Below are positions 56,030-64,000 of a DNA stretch of 64,000 nucleotides, piece after piece (position 1 is the stretch's first letter; each line of letters begins with the position of its first letter). The notes below the pieces were generated by a model. It worked only from the letters and a program-made list of their open reading frames with translations. It had not been told where the DNA came from and ran no database searches. This DNA is from Caenorhabditis remanei (taxonomy: Eukaryota > Nematoda > Chromadorea > Rhabditida > Rhabditidae): NCBI RefSeq assembly GCF_010183535.1, contig NC_071333.1:13514587-13578586 (forward strand). The letters are read 5' to 3'. The translations under genes and the position numbers were made by a program.

Positions 56030-58260
56030 AGCTTGAAGGTTTTTCAAAAACAAAAAAAACAAAAACAAAAACACGAACAACAAAATAACTAAAAATAAAG
56101 CGTTCGCTCCAAAACAATCCACGTCACAAACTTATAGAATGATGTTGGTTTTTCGAGAAACCACCACGTACATAAAACTAAAAATATATAAGTACTACAA
56201 AACAATAATGTCTTTATGATCAGAATGCTCTTTATATGTACTTGAATACAAAAATCTTATCAAGTTATTATCTGAAAATTTGGCATGGTCTTACAAAATT
56301 CCACCTAGATTTTCAAAACGTGTTTTTCTTCTTCTTGGTACTTTCGACTTATCCTCCGGGAAAACTGGCACATGTTCATTAGGAGACAGACGGTACGCCA
56401 TGCGCTGACTGCACCTGCCAAAGGATTATAAATCGCAGCCCGTGGACCACCCACGTAGATTATTCACTAACCAGGTTTCGAATTGTTTCGTTTTTAATTT
56501 TTTGGATTACTGTCCCATCAAGGATTCACTGTGAACTGTTTTAAATAATGAATATAACAAATGTTTTGGGCAAACGATAGGGTAATACTATTTTTAGTTT
56601 TTCTCAATAATTGATGAAATGATGTAGCTGCATCTTTTAATTGTAACATAATGAACATAAGGCGATGCAATCGAAAAATATTAAGCTCCATTTGTTTTCG
56701 ATTCATATCATTTTACTACTCACTTTCAGTAAAAGAAAAACAATTCCTGGTTCTCTGTCCCAGACTACACACTCGGTCTCGAGCCTGAAAAATCGGACTC
56801 AATTATGCCTCTGAAGGTAATTTGCCGAGTCTTTCATGAAAACACAGGTGTTACTTAACAATGTTCCAGGTCAGCGTTGATTTTGTGCTCAAAGATCTAT
56901 TCATCATACCCAGAACTAACTGAAATGTTTTTCATACCAAGAAATCGCTGGTTTTTTTCTGTTTTCTCAAGAGGCTGCCATTGTTTCTGTTTTCAGCATG
57001 GAACCTACAGATAAGAAAATCTAATCAAAAACAGACAGACGGAAGAATTTCTTTCTGTGTTTTTATCAACTATAATATGTTTTGTTTCTCTGTTTCAGTA
57101 GACATCTTTACAAATGAACCATTCACGTCATAAAATTGTGCAATGGATGAGAATGTTTGTTCATTTAGTTTGAACACGCTATGAACATTTTCAAATAGCC
57201 TTTTGTTTCATTCCCTCAATTTCTCAAGTTACCTTCAAATTTGTTCCTGCCACCTTCCTGGTATGAGCATTTCAAAACGTATTTGCAATTTTTCTCTCAT
57301 TTGCAAACGTTTTCTCATCATTAAAAAAGGGTTTTGCGCATTTAGAGGCTTGATACAATGAACTTTTCATGGGAAAGCCCAGCGGAAGTATTTGATTTGA
57401 AAAATCTCACGTATGTATCTAAAATTTTTCTAAAATGCCACGTTTGAAGCATTCAAGGACCAACACGACTTCCGTTAATTCCAAGTGCATGATGCTAAGT
57501 AGTTTAGCGGATGGAACATAATACAATCAATTTAGTCGTCATTGTTGTCAACTTTACCAGAGAATGTTCTCAGTTGCCAACTTGAAGGTCATCTGAAGGC
57601 CCCCTAAGGTTTTGCCCACAAAACTAGGACCTTCAGAACCTTCGTTACTCTCTGTTCTACTCACCTCGTTATTATTCTCCTTTATTTCCTGTTATCAGGC
57701 TTATTTTATATTGATTAACAATTAATTATAATTCAAATACCCTCGCAAAGTAAATATGCAAACGCGCTCCCCTGCACTTCTCTAATCCTCCACTCTCTCA
57801 CTGAGAGATTCCCACACCCACTCATTCAGTTGCGAATAGTTTCGTATATGCGAACGGGTGCAAGGAGGAGCGCGCGTATTTTGTTGTGAGTGCATTGAAT
57901 GGATTTTCCATCTTTTCCGAAGGTTTTTGGGTGCATTGTCACTCTTTTTACCTTCGCCATCAATGACAACACCCGCACGCACTCCTCGCAGTCACCTGCT
58001 CGTCATACCGTCAACTTTATCATTTTTATCTTCTTTTTACCTTTTTTGGTGCTTTATCAAGGGATTCCGTGATAGAGAGCGTAATAAATGGGTCATTGAA
58101 TACATGTGTACTGTTATTTCCGGTTGCATAGCTTATCTTACACAAAACTAGCCATTATTCATATTAGATTGCGTGATAATAACGGATTAGGCATTAGTCT
58201 CCGACCGCTCTTACTTGCCTTCTCCACATGGTGCATAACGACCGTTCAATTTCTTAATTG
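56030..58260. other. region without firm genes, one tiny spliced frame
   Basis: Mostly AT-rich. A two-exon micro-frame (56805-56816 joined to 56870-56923, good donor and TTCCAG acceptor) would encode a 21-residue peptide starting MPLKVSVDFVLKDLF. It follows a TTTCAG acceptor at about 56729. It may be a small non-coding or micropeptide transcript, or chance. A variant of the 58-63 kb motif (CAACACCCGC) lies at 57967. Confidence 0.3.
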
Positions 58261-58267
58261 ATGGCCA

Positions 58268-58418
58268 GCGGCGAATCGTTAATTTATCGATTTCGGCATT
58301 TCCGTTGTATAGTGGCTCTGATGTCTCTACATAAATCGTAAATTCATCGATTTCGACATTATTTCCCACTCGAAGACGGCTCTTATGTCTCTACACAAAT
58401 CGTTAATTTATCGAGGAC
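58268..58418. repeat. roughly 62-bp tandem repeat, 2.3 copies
   Basis: The segment AATCGTTAATTTATCGATTT recurs, with small changes, near 58274, 58336 and 58399. It is joined by similar linkers ending GGCTCTTATGTCTCTACAC. It marks the left side of the repeat-rich 58-64 kb block. No coding potential. Confidence 0.65.
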
Positions 58419-58618
58419 TTCTTTCCCGCTGTATATGAACCGAGTCGGCTCGCACAATTCTGATTTTCTGAATATTTGGCTAAAAACGTGTAAAAGTGAG
58501 CAATTGTAGCTAAAAAATAGCAACATGTTACCCTTTACCCTCTTTGTTTCGTTTTTCTTTGATTTTCCGCGCTTTCGTCGTCTTTCCGTTCTCTCCTTTT
58601 CAGATTTTTCCTTTGTTA

Positions 58619-58762
58619 CCAGTCGACGGCTCAGGGCATTGTCCGCTAGTCCATTCCTGGTCAAAGGAGAATTTTTGGCAGTCAACGTCACCAGTCGACG
58701 GCTCCCGGCATTGTCCGCGAGTCCATTCCTGGTCATAAGAGGATTTTGGCAGACAACGACGC
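58619..58762. repeat. 72-bp tandem duplication
   Basis: CCAGTCGACGGCTC starts at 58619 and again at 58691. The two 72-bp copies share nearly all positions through CCATTCCTGGTCA and TTTTGGCAG. Both carry a SalI-type GTCGAC. The duplication sits just before the minisatellite at 58888. Confidence 0.85.
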
Positions 58763-58887
58763 GAATCGAGCTGAAAAGTCCTACACCACAGTGTGTAGGC
58801 AGAAGAAAGAAGGCCAAATGAATCGTAGAAGTCGTGGTTGGCCAACAATCCGCTCGAAAATCGTTGAAGAAAGAAGAACAATTCAGT

Positions 58888-59000
58888 CTACGAAGTCTGC
58901 GTTATTCTACGAGGTCTACGTCGAATTTTCTACGATGTCTGCGTTATTCTACGATGTCACGGTCACTCTACGAAGTCTGCATTATTCTACGAAGTCTACG
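58888..59000. repeat. 19-bp minisatellite (TCTACGAAGTCTGCGTTAT)
   Basis: About six degenerate copies of a 19-bp unit built around TCTACGANGTCTRCG lie between 58888 and 59000. The array is bracketed by two near-identical segments, GGCCAACAATCCGCTCGAAAA-like at 58840 and TTGGCCAACATCCGCTCGAA at 59001. The array and its flanks therefore look like one amplified unit. Confidence 0.8.
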
Positions 59001-59467
59001 TTGGCCAACATCCGCTCGAAAATCGCCGTCGAAGCTGACATCTTCTGAAAAACGACGGAACTAGCCTCAGACCCGCACTAGAGACCCTTTTTCGATTGTC
59101 GTTCTCATTAGAATGCCGAAAAACTCTGTGTCAAGTCATGGCGAAACTCTGTTCGATTTTTTTCTATTCACCCACGTCGAAATTCTATGAATTTCGCACA
59201 AATTTGCGTCATTATGAGCAATTTTGCTTTTAACATGAGCAACAATGCCGTAAATCGACACAAGTTTGAATTTCCCGCCAAAAAGTCGTACTGTCTAATG
59301 TTCACCGACATTGCGTACGACTGCGGACCTAACGAGCGCGAACGAAAAAATTTTTTCTTCTCCTAAAATTTTTATCGTCTCTCTTGCCGTTTCTCCGCAA
59401 TTTCCGTTGATTTTATCCGTATTTTCCGTGATAATAATTAATTAAAGGGTTTATTTCAGACTTCTCG

Positions 59468-61433
59468 ATGGCACTCGACAACGAAACATCACCATCCGCC
59501 CAACAGGCCAGCGAAAACGTGGAGGGACAGTCTGTGACAACCTCCGCAGCGATTCCAGCGCCAACAACCGCGGACTCAAGCTCTAATAAGAGTGAGGTTG
59601 GTATTCTCTTGTCATGAATAGAAAAAATACCCAAAAAATCTGAAAATATCTGAGAATTTTCGACCAAAAACGCAAAAAATCGATAATTTTCGACTGAAAA
59701 TCATCGAAAAGTAGCTAAAAGCTGAAAATTTTGTGTCAAATCCAGATAAAATTCACTCTTTTGTGGATAAAAAGGCCAAAGGCCAGGCTTTCGGCAAAAT
59801 TTTAGTCGGATTCGCTAAAATTTCGTGAAATTTCGACAAAAAACGCTAAAAATCAGTGATTTTGAGCATGTTTAAGCTAAAACTCAGTGAACGCCGACGA
59901 ACTAGTAGTCAAACTGCTGAAATTCGGTAAAAGCATCAAAGCTAACACCATTTCCGCCCAGTTTCTATTTGATTTTAAGGACTTCCGAGAGATTTTTCAG
60001 CTAAAACCTCATTTAATGATGCAAATTTTGAATTCCGGTGGAGGCAACGCGGCCGCGTAGCGGTTCCAGCGCCACTTTCGAAAATATTTCGAATACACAC
60101 CCATAGAAATCGATTATTGCTCATTAACTCACAATTTCGGTCACTATTTCATTGAAATTCAACGGAAATATACTGAAAAACACTGATTTACAGCTAAAAA
60201 ATTGCTAATTTAAGGCAAATGAACTCAAACTCAACTCTCTTTACCTATAATAACCCACAATTGTACTGTTTTTATTACAGCACGATGTCGACAGCCGCAG
60301 CAATCAATCGGACAACGACGTCAACAAGGATTCTGGCGCTTCAGACAACGACGTCGACAAGGAGTCTGGTGATTCGGACACCGACAACAACATCCGCATG
60401 CCGCCTAGAGCATCGGGTGCTCCACGTCATCAACATCTGCTAGAAGCCGATCTCCACAAGGGTATAGAGTAATTGAGAGAAGAATTGTTGTATAACTATA
60501 TAGTTACAGCATTCAACGAGCGAGTCAAAGCCTCTATGGCCAAAGGATGGGTCAACTTGGGAGGAGGACACTTCAACCAGTGCCGAGTCATCAACGCTGA
60601 CGGGACAAGCTCTCTAATCCCGCATCCGTTCCCACCAGGACTCTCTGCGGACACATCTGTTTACAACAGCCGCACAACTCCACCTCAGGCCAACAACCCG
60701 CGTCCAACGCCACCAACCGCATCTGCTCCAATCATGGACAGAATCGGAGGTACAATTATAGCAAAACGTCGAAAATATAACGAATTTCTTCCTTGCAGGG
60801 TTAGTCCAAAGAGCCGTATGCTGTTCGGGGATCTCGGAAGGCATTCGCCAACTCGTCCGAAGCTGCGGTGACAACGAGCAAAAGCTCACTGAAATTCTGC
60901 AAAGAGTTTCGTTGAAGCCGATGCCAAGGGACGCGAAGACAATCATCAATGGACTCTCAAAATGGTCGGAGGCCCGAGAGTTCTTTGGAACTCGCTTCAA
61001 CATCCGCATCCACACGAAGAGCTCCACCCAAATTGCATACTACTCCGTTCATGGAGCGTATGCTAAGCAGCTGCTGTACTTGGATGACCAACACCCGCAA
61101 TTCAAGGAGAAGAAGCGTATCGCCGACAAGAAGGAGGAGGACTGGGCCAAGGAGACAACTTCCGCACTTGTAGTGACGGAGTTGGTACAACATCCGCCCG
61201 TCCACACCTTCAGGCCACACACCTTCGGTCGCAGAAAGTGTCCATGCATCAAAACGATGATGCACCACTATGCAGCACACGACGCCAACATTCAATGCGA
61301 AGCCAGAAGAGTCCTCCAAGAGGCAATTCTCGAAGTACATCACCAGATGACCTCTCACTCGCTTAGCGAGCTGAAGTCTCTCAAACTCGGATGGAACCCA
61401 TTGGATAATGGCGCCAACACCCGCAGACACTGA
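59468..61433 (+). CDS. unidentified protein with acidic N-terminus, first gene of a repeat-rich two-gene block
   Basis: Four exons in phase (59468-59596, 60281-60461, 60510-60749, 60799-61433) give about 394 residues. An ACTTCTCG leader follows a TTTCAG acceptor at 59459. The N-terminus is Ser/Thr/Ala-rich. Exon 2 has acidic repeats (SDNDVNKDSGASDNDVDKES). Exon 3 has a Pro/Thr-rich linker. The C-terminal 210 residues look globular, with landmarks LVQRAVCCSGISEGIRQLVR, EFFGTRFNIRIHTKS, YYSVHGAYAKQLLYLDDQHP and a Cys/His cluster RRKCPCIKTMMHHYAAHD. I do not recognise the fold. There is no signal peptide or TM segment, so it is probably nuclear or cytoplasmic. AATAAA lies at 61540 and 61552, and the next gene starts only 227 bases after the stop. 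GC content and codon use differ from the upstream genes, suggesting a mobile or lineage-specific origin. Confidence 0.75.
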
Positions 61434-61659
61434 AGTCGTGTGAAAATGGCTGATAGCCGAAGAACGCCTTTGAGGCATTGTTAACCTTTGTTTTGTTGAA
61501 ACCATTGTTTTACCTTCTCTGTTTTTATCAGGAAAAAAGAATAAAAAGTTGAATAAAATTCACTTTCTTACTGATATTTCAGATCACTTCTCGTATTATA
61601 CGACTATTGTTATCTTTCGCTATACTCTCATAGTGTCTCCATGTAATATTTATTGCAGA

Positions 61660-62964
61660 ATGAGTGACATTGAGGAAATTCAAAGCGACGACGACACTTC
61701 AAGAGTCGTGAGAGCGATCAACGAGGAGTTGAAGACAACACCCGCGACATCCAAACGTACTTCTCGTCGTTCGGCAAGCCCGAGACGCCAAGAGGAGGAC
61801 CAGGACAACGGGCCATCGTCTTCGGCGAAGAAGAGGGGAGCCAAGACTTCTGGGATTCATGCTTCGGAGCCGCAGGTCATTCCCAAGAAGGGAAGAATCT
61901 CGGAGCCAACATCCGCTGAAACTCGAAAAGAAGATCTTGAAGTTCGCTCGATCGCCTCCAAACCAATGGAGCCAACATCCGCCTTCGTAGCGTCAAAGGG
62001 TAACAATACGCTTCTATAAGCCTATAACCTTTAACGTCCCGTTTTTTCCAGAGTACAAGGAACTGCGTGAAGCGATCAAGTTTGTCAAGAACAAGTTGGA
62101 AACGTTCAAATCAGCAGATGACGTGGCTCCAACGTGGATCAGATCAACAGATCAAATAGCCACAATGATGTCCTGCATTGATAAGAACATGAAAGAACTT
62201 GTGAAGTCAAACAACAAGACCGTTGACACTCTACAGAATGCATGTGACATCATCCGCGGTCTCCAAGACCTTGTCGCATCACTCATCAACACGCATCACC
62301 AAGAGGACTGGCTCAAAGGCATGGCTGATGTCGTCGGCCGCACTGATGAGACTCGCAAACTAGTGGGCTCGCTAGCAGCGGCCACCGGACGCATCGAAGG
62401 TCTCTTGACAGCGACAACACCTGCCGTCTCGTCAGTCACTCGCAATCCTTACAAACTGGAGAACACTAAAAGTGAAAAACCAGGGACAACATCCGCAAAA
62501 GTCAACGTGAGTTATCTTTTGATTCATTCGAAAGAGAACCGTAACTGATATATTTCAGCGAGGTTGCATTCTCTGTGACTCCGACGCCCACAACACCGAA
62601 AACTGTCGTTCGTATCCAAAATCGATCGACAGGATTCAACAGGCACACAAGTTGAACGTCTGCATCCAATGTCTGGAGCCTTTCCGAGCCAACGACAAAG
62701 GATTGCATGAGGAATGCACAAGAGTCGGCGTTAAGTGCCGCAAATGCTTCCGCTACGTCGACTACGAAGAGGCCTCGTATCATCATCCGGTCTTCTGCGT
62801 CTTCAAAGCGCAGAACAACGGTTCGGGAGCGAGTCACGAGCCACCAAACAAGCCAAAAACTCCGGTAATCAAGGTATACCCTATAACACAGCCTGATAGT
62901 AAGCAATCGTTGATATTTTCAGCAACATCCGCTAGCACGAGGCACTTCGAGACGTGGACATTGA
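61660..62964 (+). CDS. coiled-coil protein with three zinc knuckles, retroelement Gag-like
   Basis: Four exons in phase (61660-61999, 62052-62506, 62559-62873, 62923-62964) give about 383 residues. The ATG follows a TTATTGCAG acceptor directly. The N-terminus is basic and Ser-rich (SKRTSRRSASPRRQEED). The middle is helical (EYKELREAIKFVKNKLETFK onward). Exon 3 carries three zinc-binding motifs: CILCDSDAHNTENC (C-x2-C-x4-H-x4-C), CIQCLEPFRANDKGLHEEC and CRKCFRYVDYEEASYHHPVF followed by Cys. This layout resembles the Gag nucleocapsid part of nematode BEL/Pao-type elements, which binds RNA. No protease, reverse transcriptase or integrase follows, so it is either a domesticated or a gag-only remnant. 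AATAAA lies at 63149. The last coding exon begins with the dispersed 10-mer. Confidence 0.75.
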
Positions 62965-64000
62965 GCCGGTCGCAGAAGTCGCCAACATCCGCTGTCGAAC
63001 TTCAACATCCGCTGATCTCCAATCAAATTGTTGCTTTTTTCTATTATTTTTGCTGTTGTTAACCTTGTTATCTCACTGGAGACACCCTTGTTTTTGTTCC
63101 ATTTCTGGACAATTGTTGCATAAAAAGCTTTGGAGCTATTGCTCATTGAATAAAGCATTAAAAGTTATCAAACATATTTCTTATCTCTTCTTCTGTGACT
63201 CTTGAGTATATATACTCTGTCGAATATCTGTTTATAGGCGACATCACGGAGATTTTGGAGAGAATGAGATGATGACTAGCAACAAGGTGCTCTTTTGAAC
63301 ACAAACTTTAAAGCAACACATTTAGCTACAACAACACCGTATAGGTACACATTCACTGATTACTCAAAGAGCATCAGATACATGGGGATGACAAACCCAC
63401 ATAAATTTTCAACAATGCAAGACATATTTTGCACAACACTACAGATGACACATCATCAACACTTCAAACGTTAGTCCTCGGACAAACGTCTACATAAGAA
63501 GACCTACACAAACGAGTATAGGCAACATCCACCTCGGTTCTTCAAAGCTACTGCTTTGTATCCAGAGCCAAAACATCAACGACAGACAGTAAAGGAAGTG
63601 AAATATCTTTCCAGAACTAGAAGTCAAAACATCTCGAGTAAGATGCGACTTGCATTGAACTCACCCACTTCAATCGAGGTATCCCCCACGTGACCATAAG
63701 TTTCGGCTAGGTTCAGGGAAACTTCACCCATTTGGGATTGTTATTCCGAAAGTTAGGTTATAGTTTCGGCTATAATTGAAGTATGGAGATGTTACTAGAA
63801 TCCATAAACTATGGCACTGACGATAGTTAAAGCTGCGTAGTATCCAGGACATTGTAGTATCCAAAGGAGTCGCCAACTCCTGAGGACCCAACAGAATACT
63901 CATAAAGCCAATGCACGTGACTTTGTCGACTGATTAAGGTCTATAAGTGGCAGTTACAGATTGTAGCAGAAAGAATGTTGTCTGTATCGGAGTTATAACC
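62965..64000. other. 3' UTR and possible retroelement end sequence
   Basis: The first part is the 3' UTR of the zinc-knuckle gene, including two exact copies of the dispersed 10-mer at 62983 and 63003. From about 63240 to the window end there is no coding frame. The sequence is unlike normal worm intergenic DNA: few homopolymer runs, and a TATAAGTGGC box near 63943 followed by a TGTAGCAG...TATAACC end, which resembles a promoter-bearing long terminal repeat. The second copy needed to prove an LTR would lie outside the window. Confidence 0.35.

Follow-up and report, generated by a model that had tools for sequence, protein, structure and literature searches.

Why should one 10-base word, CAACATCCGC, recur on a single strand of a few kilobases of nematode DNA, inside and outside coding exons and in every reading frame? 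The question was raised by a sequence-only reading of the window (the whole 64,000-nucleotide stretch of Caenorhabditis remanei DNA that was analysed), which had counted ten exact copies, all on the plus strand. Every coordinate proved exact, and dinucleotide shuffles gave a mean of 0.03 copies. Over the whole window, the plus strand carries 10 exact, 13 one-mismatch and 15 two-mismatch copies, as compared with 0, 2 and 18 on the minus strand; ten of the one-mismatch plus-strand copies lie between 59490 and 62248. Equal density on both strands, named beforehand as a refutation, was not what the genome showed: there were 170 forward and 90 reverse matches versus 47/47 for the reversed pattern, with dense same-strand clusters among the matches listed (100 of 260).

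The host element and its copies

The word cluster at 59006-63012 lies within the 5' third of an LTR retrotransposon of the BEL/Pao group, 19,233 bp long, which runs past the end of the window. Its parts within the window are as follows (gene models contain predicted GT/AG introns).

57538..57542, strand not applicable: target-site duplication GTCAT, 5 bp, repeated 3' of the 3' LTR, outside the window
57543..58228, plus strand: 5' LTR, 686 bp, TG...CA, from comparison of the LTR pair, with the variant word CAACACCCGC at 57967
57967..63532, all sense: dispersed word, 22 places at most one mismatch from CAACATCCGC, including CAACACCCGC
58229..58246, plus strand: probable tRNA primer-binding site, read off the sequence, starting with TGG and abutting the LTR
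58247..59467, plus strand: untranslated leader, as read in the sequence, with minisatellites at 58618-58758 and 58883-59002 and an exact word at 59006
59468..61433, plus strand: accessory gene A, four predicted exons (introns 59597-60280, 60462-60509 and 60750-60798), exact words at 60388, 60998 and 61188
61660..62964, plus strand: accessory gene B, four predicted exons (introns 62000-62051, 62507-62558 and 62874-62922), exact words at 61907, 61973, 62487 and 62923
62965..63016, plus strand: stretch 3' of the gene B stop codon, exact words at 62983 and 63003
63017..64000, plus strand: the element's continuation as far as the last position of the window

Genes C and D, gag, pol and the 3' LTR come after the window (C6:13578587-13591361), this downstream layout being taken from the copy at C2:17.3 Mb. 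The pol product matched the Pao-type peptidase (PF05380, E=1.8e-56) and reverse transcriptase (PF00078, E=1.3e-9), followed by an integrase (PF17921, E=9.2e-10; PF18701, E=1.1e-12), all above the cut-off, while the match of Gag to the DUF1759-type PF03564 was slightly under it (E=5.2e-5; 23.7 bits, cut-off 25.4). The 5' LTR is identical to the 3' LTR at L027:4676-5361 in 686 of 686 positions. Four near-identical copies of the element were found (family 1), each with an identical LTR pair and a perfect 5-bp target duplication, which differs in each of the three other copies; they are recent insertions of a BEL/Pao element. Among the accessory genes, A has a homologue (36%) in one family 2b copy (C6:3516559), and B has a Cys/His-rich C-terminal part with relatives in families 1b, 2a, 3 and, weakly, 4. 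Relatives of C and D occur in families 1, 2a, 2b, 3 and 4; protein searches returned no homologue for C and a single protein for D, GCK72_012319 of C. remanei.

Strand, frame and exon distribution

On the sense strand, each of the four 19.2-kb copies carries 15-19 exact words and 46-47 within one mismatch, whereas the antisense strand has none of either kind in any of them; since the four are near-identical, these counts are not independent events. RNA-level reading is favoured by this asymmetry because dispersed double-stranded DNA sites that arise singly should occupy both strands. The words lie in the LTR, the leader, coding sequence and sequence after stop codons, and in one copy, ten coding pieces hold 31 sites, which divide 9/11/11 among the three frames. 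As had been read from the letters alone, the coding copies in the window give NIR (60388, 60998), QHP (61188, 62923) and TSA (61907, 61973, 62487), in agreement with the gene models; the copies at 62983 and 63003 do follow the gene B stop codon, and 59006 is in the leader directly 3' of a minisatellite. The copy at 60388 extends over the border of a further short tandem array (60311-60392), so that one of the ten exact copies overlaps and one adjoins such an array.

Protein sequence and codon usage could not reproduce the density. In 200 codon shuffles of seven accessory coding pieces, the exact word appeared 0.70 times on average and at most 3 times versus 11 observed, an outcome that leaves the earlier argument against protein selection intact, and 200 shuffles of gag-pol gave a mean of 1.42 places within one mismatch versus 12 observed. 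Single pol pieces are less clear: the best 9- and 10-mers of the family 1 piece alone were not above codon shuffles (49/60 and 53/60 reached them), nor were those of family 2a, and the best 9-mers of family 2b were reached by 6/60, 5/60 and 12/60 shuffles. The element's sense strand is rich in A and C. The six predicted introns (934 bp) hold no word, with about three expected at even density; an anagram control for this exon/intron comparison gave rates of 0.22 versus 0.03, which are indicative only, as the anagrams had a mean of 17 sites and the true set 59. The sites were slightly more unpaired than composition-matched stretches (scores of 0.430 versus 0.407 and 0.479 versus 0.423), a small difference.

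Private words of related families

Of 131 reverse-transcriptase places, 30 were read as sequence, the other 101 including nearly all of those below 53% identity. Among these 30 pieces, 29 served for pol word counts (L059, a truncated match, was omitted), 17 for sense-strand composition, and 15 each for pol codon shuffles, the alignment of pol site columns and Gag knuckles. CAACATCCGC is nearly absent from the related BEL/Pao families, which instead carry other sense-only, C-rich words: GTCCCGCCGA, ACCGCTC[CA]A and AGCATCCCAC. The mean number of own words per 3.9-kb pol piece (sense/antisense) was 7.0/0 in family 1, 5.2/0 in family 1b, which shares the family 1 word, 8.3/0 in family 2b, 4.0/0 in family 3 and 6.5/0 in family 4, with no other family's word exceeding 1.0 on the sense strand; the 2b copies are related to one another, as are those of family 4, and their sites are not independent events. 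Families 1, 2b, 3 and 4 thus have private words.

The words of two families were also found beyond the DNA from which they had been read. Outside the sampled pieces, 19 of 19 places of GTCCCGCCGA near three 2b copies and 9 of 9 places of AGCATCCCACW near four family 4 copies were on the predicted strand, as tallied from the matches listed minus those within the 3.9-kb pieces, the copies again being related. The family 3 pattern RACCGCTCMA was too common for this kind of count (319/329 genome-wide versus 259/305 for the control), and the 100 matches listed precede the family 3 copy on C2. The own word of family 2a, the fifth family, is a candidate and is not established: it is partly palindromic, occurs 5.0/2.9 times sense/antisense in pol, and as YCCGCGGTTSA showed no genome-wide excess (51/39 versus 51/45 for the control), with a single site, homologous in three copies, outside the sampled DNA.

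Own words of different families occupy some homologous pol positions, with 15 pairwise co-locations at 7 places versus 4.0 expected from circular shifts (none of 2000 reached 15), although shared C-rich codons may inflate the count. Five of the eight site columns in pol have no gap in any of the 15 aligned pieces, and the families differ there by substitution; two of the others adjoin gaps and one is at the end of a piece. A word spreading by insertion, one of the roles first suggested, was rejected for pol on these grounds. The suggested role as a mobile element's signal for RNA packaging or protein binding fared better, being favoured by sites that lie in an LTR retrotransposon, on the sense strand only, free of frame and with private words per family. 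It seems unlikely, by argument rather than from data, that private words would accumulate sense-only under small-RNA silencing.

Family 1b and the Gag knuckles

All five family 1b copies examined have at least five common stop codons and a deletion in pol, which indicates that the family probably spread after pol had been broken. It has nonetheless kept the family 1 word, as would be expected of a cis tag that is read in trans. In the broken copies, conservation at the motif columns does not clearly exceed that elsewhere (0.900-0.943 versus 0.907-0.934). Three CCHC-like knuckles were recognized in Gag of families 1, 2a, 2b, 3 and 4 (11 of the 15 pieces examined), with family-specific residues between them, and in none of the four family 1b Gag pieces. 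No match to C or D was found within family 1b, and the Cys/His part of its gene B is 41-47% identical in the seven copies with a reverse-transcriptase match. Since any family 1 protein may have served if 1b was moved in trans, this family does not single out the reader.

A putative RNA address and its alternatives

In our view, little is understood of the means by which an LTR retrotransposon distinguishes its own RNA from host mRNAs and from its relatives' RNAs. We tentatively propose, giving it slightly less than an even chance, that CAACATCCGC is a dispersed single-strand RNA recognition site for a reader encoded by the element, used for packaging its own RNA. A protein of the element would bind the words along the genomic RNA, preferring in family 1 the form CAACAUCCGC, and this binding would let the element pick its own 19-kb RNA from the RNA of the cell for coating and packaging. 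The likeliest reader would be the triple zinc-knuckle part of Gag, with word and reader diverging together, family by family. We infer RNA as the recognized form, the element as the source of the reader, Gag as this reader and packaging as the outcome; the grounds for Gag are indirect, and alternative candidates are gene B, genes C/D and a host protein. The absence of words from introns counts against a tag of unspliced RNA, since such a tag should tolerate introns, though the predicted introns are AT-rich. Somewhat more tentatively, a clade-wide code may exist, in which each family repeats its own RNA address word in any frame and rewrites it at shared positions as the reader changes. Such coevolving, family-exclusive self-recognition would keep co-resident RNAs apart, while pol-dead families that keep the word would travel in trans.

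The same words might instead be bound in the nucleus by an accessory protein (B or C/D), which would export or protect a long intron-containing RNA in the manner of Rev or CERV. We regard this as rather unlikely, but as the likeliest of the alternatives: Cer1 is described as needing its own spliced CERV for export of unspliced genomic RNA (PMC10309623, in the part available), and the present element combines predicted introns with accessory genes, one of them Cys/His-rich, and with C and D relatives in the same five families. Family 1b speaks against it, weakly, by keeping the word without C or D and with a gene B part of modest identity; as 1b perhaps moved in trans, an accessory reader is compatible with it. 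Exonic splicing enhancers for the accessory genes would fit the dense words in A, B and C/D exons and the copy at 62923, which starts exactly at a predicted 3' splice site. Words also occur, however, throughout gag and pol, whose reading frames stay open over thousands of bases, as well as in the LTR, in the leader and beyond stop codons; enhancers alone were therefore rejected, and the explanation is very improbable. A known structured RNA was judged unsuited to a 10-base linear word.

A host RNA-binding protein of the C-rich-RNA or Y-box type could read the words and aid translation, stability or localization of the element's mRNA. The words are C-rich, sense-only and in exons rather than predicted introns, and presumably resemble Y-box or poly(C) protein sites; yet a single host reader does not explain four nearly exclusive words in one genome, and we consider it improbable. 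Hardly different in probability, and also low, is a tag against silencing, whereby an element protein, bound to the words in DNA or in nascent RNA, would block small-RNA or chromatin silencing. VANDAL families offer the precedent of private, diverging, dense, one-orientation short motifs, but those recognized by VANC are, in the portion of the source available, mainly non-coding and built up by tandem repeats (PMC5735166). Most sites of the window fall in exons, with every frame used, few of the exact copies touch tandem arrays, and in pol most site columns differ by substitution. An origin of the words in base composition, the encoded proteins or codon bias alone would draw on the A- and C-rich sense strand and on those single pol pieces that were not above codon shuffles. 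Dinucleotide and wider codon shuffles, the zero antisense copies, the near-exclusive words and the out-of-sample prediction contradict it to the point that its probability is negligible; chance and codon effects are refuted at this level for families 1, 2b and 4, single pol pieces being mixed.

If the RNA address is real, coding sequence would carry a dense second code, free of the reading frame, and one could predict which helpers are able to mobilize a given defective element. Because the presumed recognition word is legible from sequence alone, differs between families of one genome and comes with short lists of candidate readers, its specificity is directly testable.

Comparison with known systems

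In the literature searched, the words themselves were not found, nor was anything specific on a family-specific dispersed RNA tag as a concept. Short oriented words running through coding DNA, each with a dedicated reader protein, are familiar from bacterial Chi and KOPS, which serve chromosomal DNA processing; the likeness is in the words, and the difference lies in the retroelement RNA considered here. BEL/Pao retrotransposons have a Pao peptidase, reverse transcriptase, integrase, LTRs and short target duplications (PMC3118150), all of them shared by the present element. At 19.2 kb and with accessory genes 5' of gag, it has no counterpart in the portion of that article available, where the word "motif" is likewise absent from the main text (PMC3118150). 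Cer1 of C. elegans, another Caenorhabditis LTR retrotransposon, resembles it in having an extra protein, the spliced CERV, which handles genomic RNA, as the present element has predicted introns and accessory genes. Cer1 is, however, of the gypsy/Ty3 type and not BEL/Pao, and neither a dispersed word nor a CERV binding site was found described in the available part of the source (PMC10309623).

VANC/VANDAL of Arabidopsis is close in having a family-own, dense short motif of one orientation that co-diverges with an element protein, the reader having been demonstrated on double-stranded DNA and the motifs lying mainly in non-coding tandem repeats (PMC5735166, as far as available). Here the words are mostly exonic, few are in tandem arrays, and they are sense-only over 19 kb. 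Dispersed packaging signals of viruses are coat-protein contacts, often in stem-loops, whereas the sites here differ little from matched stretches, being slightly more unpaired. In single-stranded RNA viruses, many short sites are distributed over the genomic RNA (PMC6281560 and PMC7793301, in the parts available). Unlike them, the family 1 word, known here from sequence alone, is long, nearly exact and little structured, and belongs to an LTR retrotransposon with one word per family. What the two have in common is a large number of short sites, placed here on the presumed packaged strand only (46-47 sense and 0 antisense in each of the four copies).

The word and its carrier element

All ten plus-strand copies of the 10-mer CAACATCCGC noticed in the sequence-only reading were recovered (10/10), where dinucleotide shuffles predict 0.03; within one mismatch, the window holds 23 copies on the plus strand and 2 on the minus strand. 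Across the whole genome (130.5 Mb, 186 contigs), the 10-mer has 170 forward and 90 reverse matches, while the reversed word has 47 of each. The first 100 of these 260 matches, those listed, include clusters spanning about 12 kb in which all copies share one strand. These clusters correspond to four nearly identical copies of a single LTR retrotransposon (family 1):

C6:13572129-13591361 (window 57543 onward): window copy, 19,233 bp, ending 12.8 kb past the window
C2:17286459, C3:6080392 and C2:2810230: starts of the other family 1 copies

This is a giant BEL/Pao element, in which Pao peptidase, reverse transcriptase (RT) and integrase score above the Pfam cut-off and a DUF1759-type gag just under it. 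The window copy opens with a 686-bp LTR at 57543. Since the LTR pairs are identical across 686 bases in all four copies and the target duplications are perfect, 5 bp long and different in each, the copies are true, recent insertions, and the element was recently active.

Upstream of gag sit the accessory reading frames A, B (both in the window), C and D. Genes A and B have four predicted exons each, while C and D look like exons of a single gene because GT/AG introns separate them; the sole match to D among 5.8 billion proteins was a C. remanei protein with the prefix GCK72 (85% identity, 56% query cover). Acceptor-like TTTCAG (window 59459) and TTGCAG (61658) lie just 5' of the start codons of A and B, a pattern that would fit trans-splicing of a spliced leader onto an operon-like transcript. 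The gag and pol frames overlap in different frames (positions 5811-6127 of L010, the piece retrieved from the copy at C2:17.3 Mb), and the pol frame spans 1746 aa in all four copies, which together suggest that pol is expressed either by frameshifting or separately.

Distribution of the word along the element

The four copies carry 18, 19, 16 and 15 exact sense copies of CAACATCCGC, and 47, 46, 47 and 46 within one mismatch, with none of either kind on the antisense strand. The consensus is CAACA[T/C]CCGC, preferably preceded by G, then by A or C. Sites were found in the LTR, the leader and the coding exons, and also past stop codons. The leader contains two short minisatellites (window 58618-59002; 72 bp x 2 and 19/38-bp units), and the word copy at 59006 lies immediately 3' of the second. 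In one copy, ten coding pieces contain 31 sites, which fall 9, 11 and 11 into the three frames, in line with the claim that the word is read in all of them. None of the 22 word places in the window falls within the six predicted introns (934 bp in total), where even density (22 sites per 6,458 bp) would give about 3; as these introns are AT-rich, this is at most suggestive of avoidance.

The sequence-only reading had allowed that codon-shuffled genes might give similar counts. They did not: in 200 synonymous-codon shuffles of the seven accessory and three gag-pol coding pieces, the accessory pieces, with 11 exact copies observed, gave a mean of 0.70 and a maximum of 3, and the gag-pol pieces, with 12 copies within one mismatch, a mean of 1.42 and a maximum of 6. 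As gag-pol holds a single exact copy, the tag is more concentrated in the accessory region.

Words of the related families

The RT search returned 131 related places, and 3.9-kb pol pieces were analyzed for the best 30 of them. Word counting without a preset motif found a distinct sense-only word in each of families 2b, 3 and 4.

BEL/Pao families by RT identity and their words
Family 1: four copies
Family 1b: five copies plus truncated L059; 90-96%; stops in the RT part of all five
Family 2a: seven copies; 74-76%
Family 2b: three copies; 73-74%; GTCCCGCCGA, sense-only
Family 3: six copies; 62-64%; ACCGCT(C)(C/A)A, sense-only (ACCGCT 18 to 0 in piece L049)
Family 4: four copies; 53-55%; AGCATCCCAC, sense-only (CCCAC 22 to 0 in piece L055)

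The best word of any kind was compared with 60 codon shuffles in 15 of the 30 pol pieces. In the three 2b copies, the best 10-mer was matched by 0, 0 and 1 of the shuffles and the best 9-mer by 6, 5 and 12. The best 8- and 9-mers of family 3 were never matched in two copies, and by 19 and 16 shuffles in a third with a shorter frame. In all four copies of family 4, no shuffle matched the best 8-mers and 0-2 matched the best 9-mers. In the pol pieces alone, the best words of families 1, 1b and 2a were mostly not above the shuffles, except for the best 8-mer in L031 (2/60) and the best 9-mer in L034 (3/60), the latter differing from the family word. Counted word by family over 29 pieces, the matrix is close to diagonal for families 1, 1b, 2b, 3 and 4: a foreign word averages no more than 1.0 sense copy per pol piece. 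The family 2a candidate gave 5.0 sense and 2.9 antisense copies, owing in part to its palindromic core.

The family words were then treated as predictions in DNA outside the sampled pol pieces. The three 2b polymerases have 10, 5 and 4 additional GTCCCGCCGA sites upstream of them, and all 19 lie on the strand predicted. Genome totals for this word were 37 and 65 against 18 and 19 for the control (100 of the 102 matches listed). Same-strand clusters among these matches lie at C1:15763987-15775458, C3:17253340-17259875 and C4:10411857-10419607 (5, 4 and 3 places), with no RT match nearby among those listed; they are probably further or decayed 2b elements. For family 4, AGCATCCCACW was found at 2, 2, 2 and 3 further places upstream of its four polymerases (9/9 on the predicted strand), with genome totals of 33 and 26 against 6 and 15 for the control, and also as single sense copies in the three 2b copies and in two 1b copies. 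GMCAACATCCGC has 64 genome places (control, 3 and 3), 53 of them in 13 element places whose strand was set by other matches there, all sense; 2 more lie in one place without a strand anchor and 9 are singles. For the family 2a candidate, the genome test gave no support, and the family 3 word, taken as RACCGCTCMA, was too common to serve as a test (319 and 329 matches against 259 and 305 for the control).

Family 1b and shared positions in pol

Family 1b showed no match to gene C or D. In gene B (window 61660-62964), the Cys/His part is far more diverged between families 1 and 1b than pol, at 41-47% identity (seven copies with an RT match) against about 91-93% for the pol pieces, which would be a case of very fast change or of exchange of the gene. 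Compared with the window copy, the 1b copy at C4:1471745 has B about 3.8 kb closer to RT. Because all five 1b copies examined (L034-L038) have the same pol deletion and five or more stop codons in common, this family probably spread in trans after the loss of pol, still carrying the word. Such spread would fit a cis tag, and 1b would thus be no guide to which family 1 protein reads the word; conservation of its motif columns was not clearly above the remainder.

One homologous pol position reads CACCATCCGC, AAGTCCCGCC, TTACCGCTCC and CAACCCACAA in families 1, 2b, 3 and 4, respectively. Different families' own words co-locate in 15 pairs at seven places, where circular shifts gave a mean of 4.0 and 0 of 2,000 reached 15; under other site definitions there were 13 co-locations among 59 sites, a number reached by 0 of 300 anagram sets, which had fewer sites. 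In a DNA alignment of 15 rows, five of eight site columns are ungapped throughout and differ by substitution. The co-location, which shared C-rich codons could inflate, supports but does not prove that site positions persist while the word changes.

Possible recognition and the nearest known systems

The word would be recognized in the genomic RNA, the element's natural single-stranded form, since sites arising one by one for a double-strand reader are expected on both strands, with which 46 to 0 is hard to reconcile. The putative reader would be encoded by the element itself, as nearly exclusive words in one genome are hard to explain by a single host protein. Gag is the first candidate, because in families 1, 2a, 2b, 3 and 4 it has a triple CCHC-like region with family-specific residues, and nucleocapsid knuckles are RNA binders. 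Nothing comparable appeared among the papers listed by the literature searches made. The nearest systems are the dispersed packaging signals of RNA viruses, which the BEL/Pao words resemble in layout, the Cer1 export protein CERV, and the VANC motifs of VANDAL transposons, which they resemble in family-specific turnover; for the packaging signals and VANC motifs alike, the likeness need not mean membership of the class.
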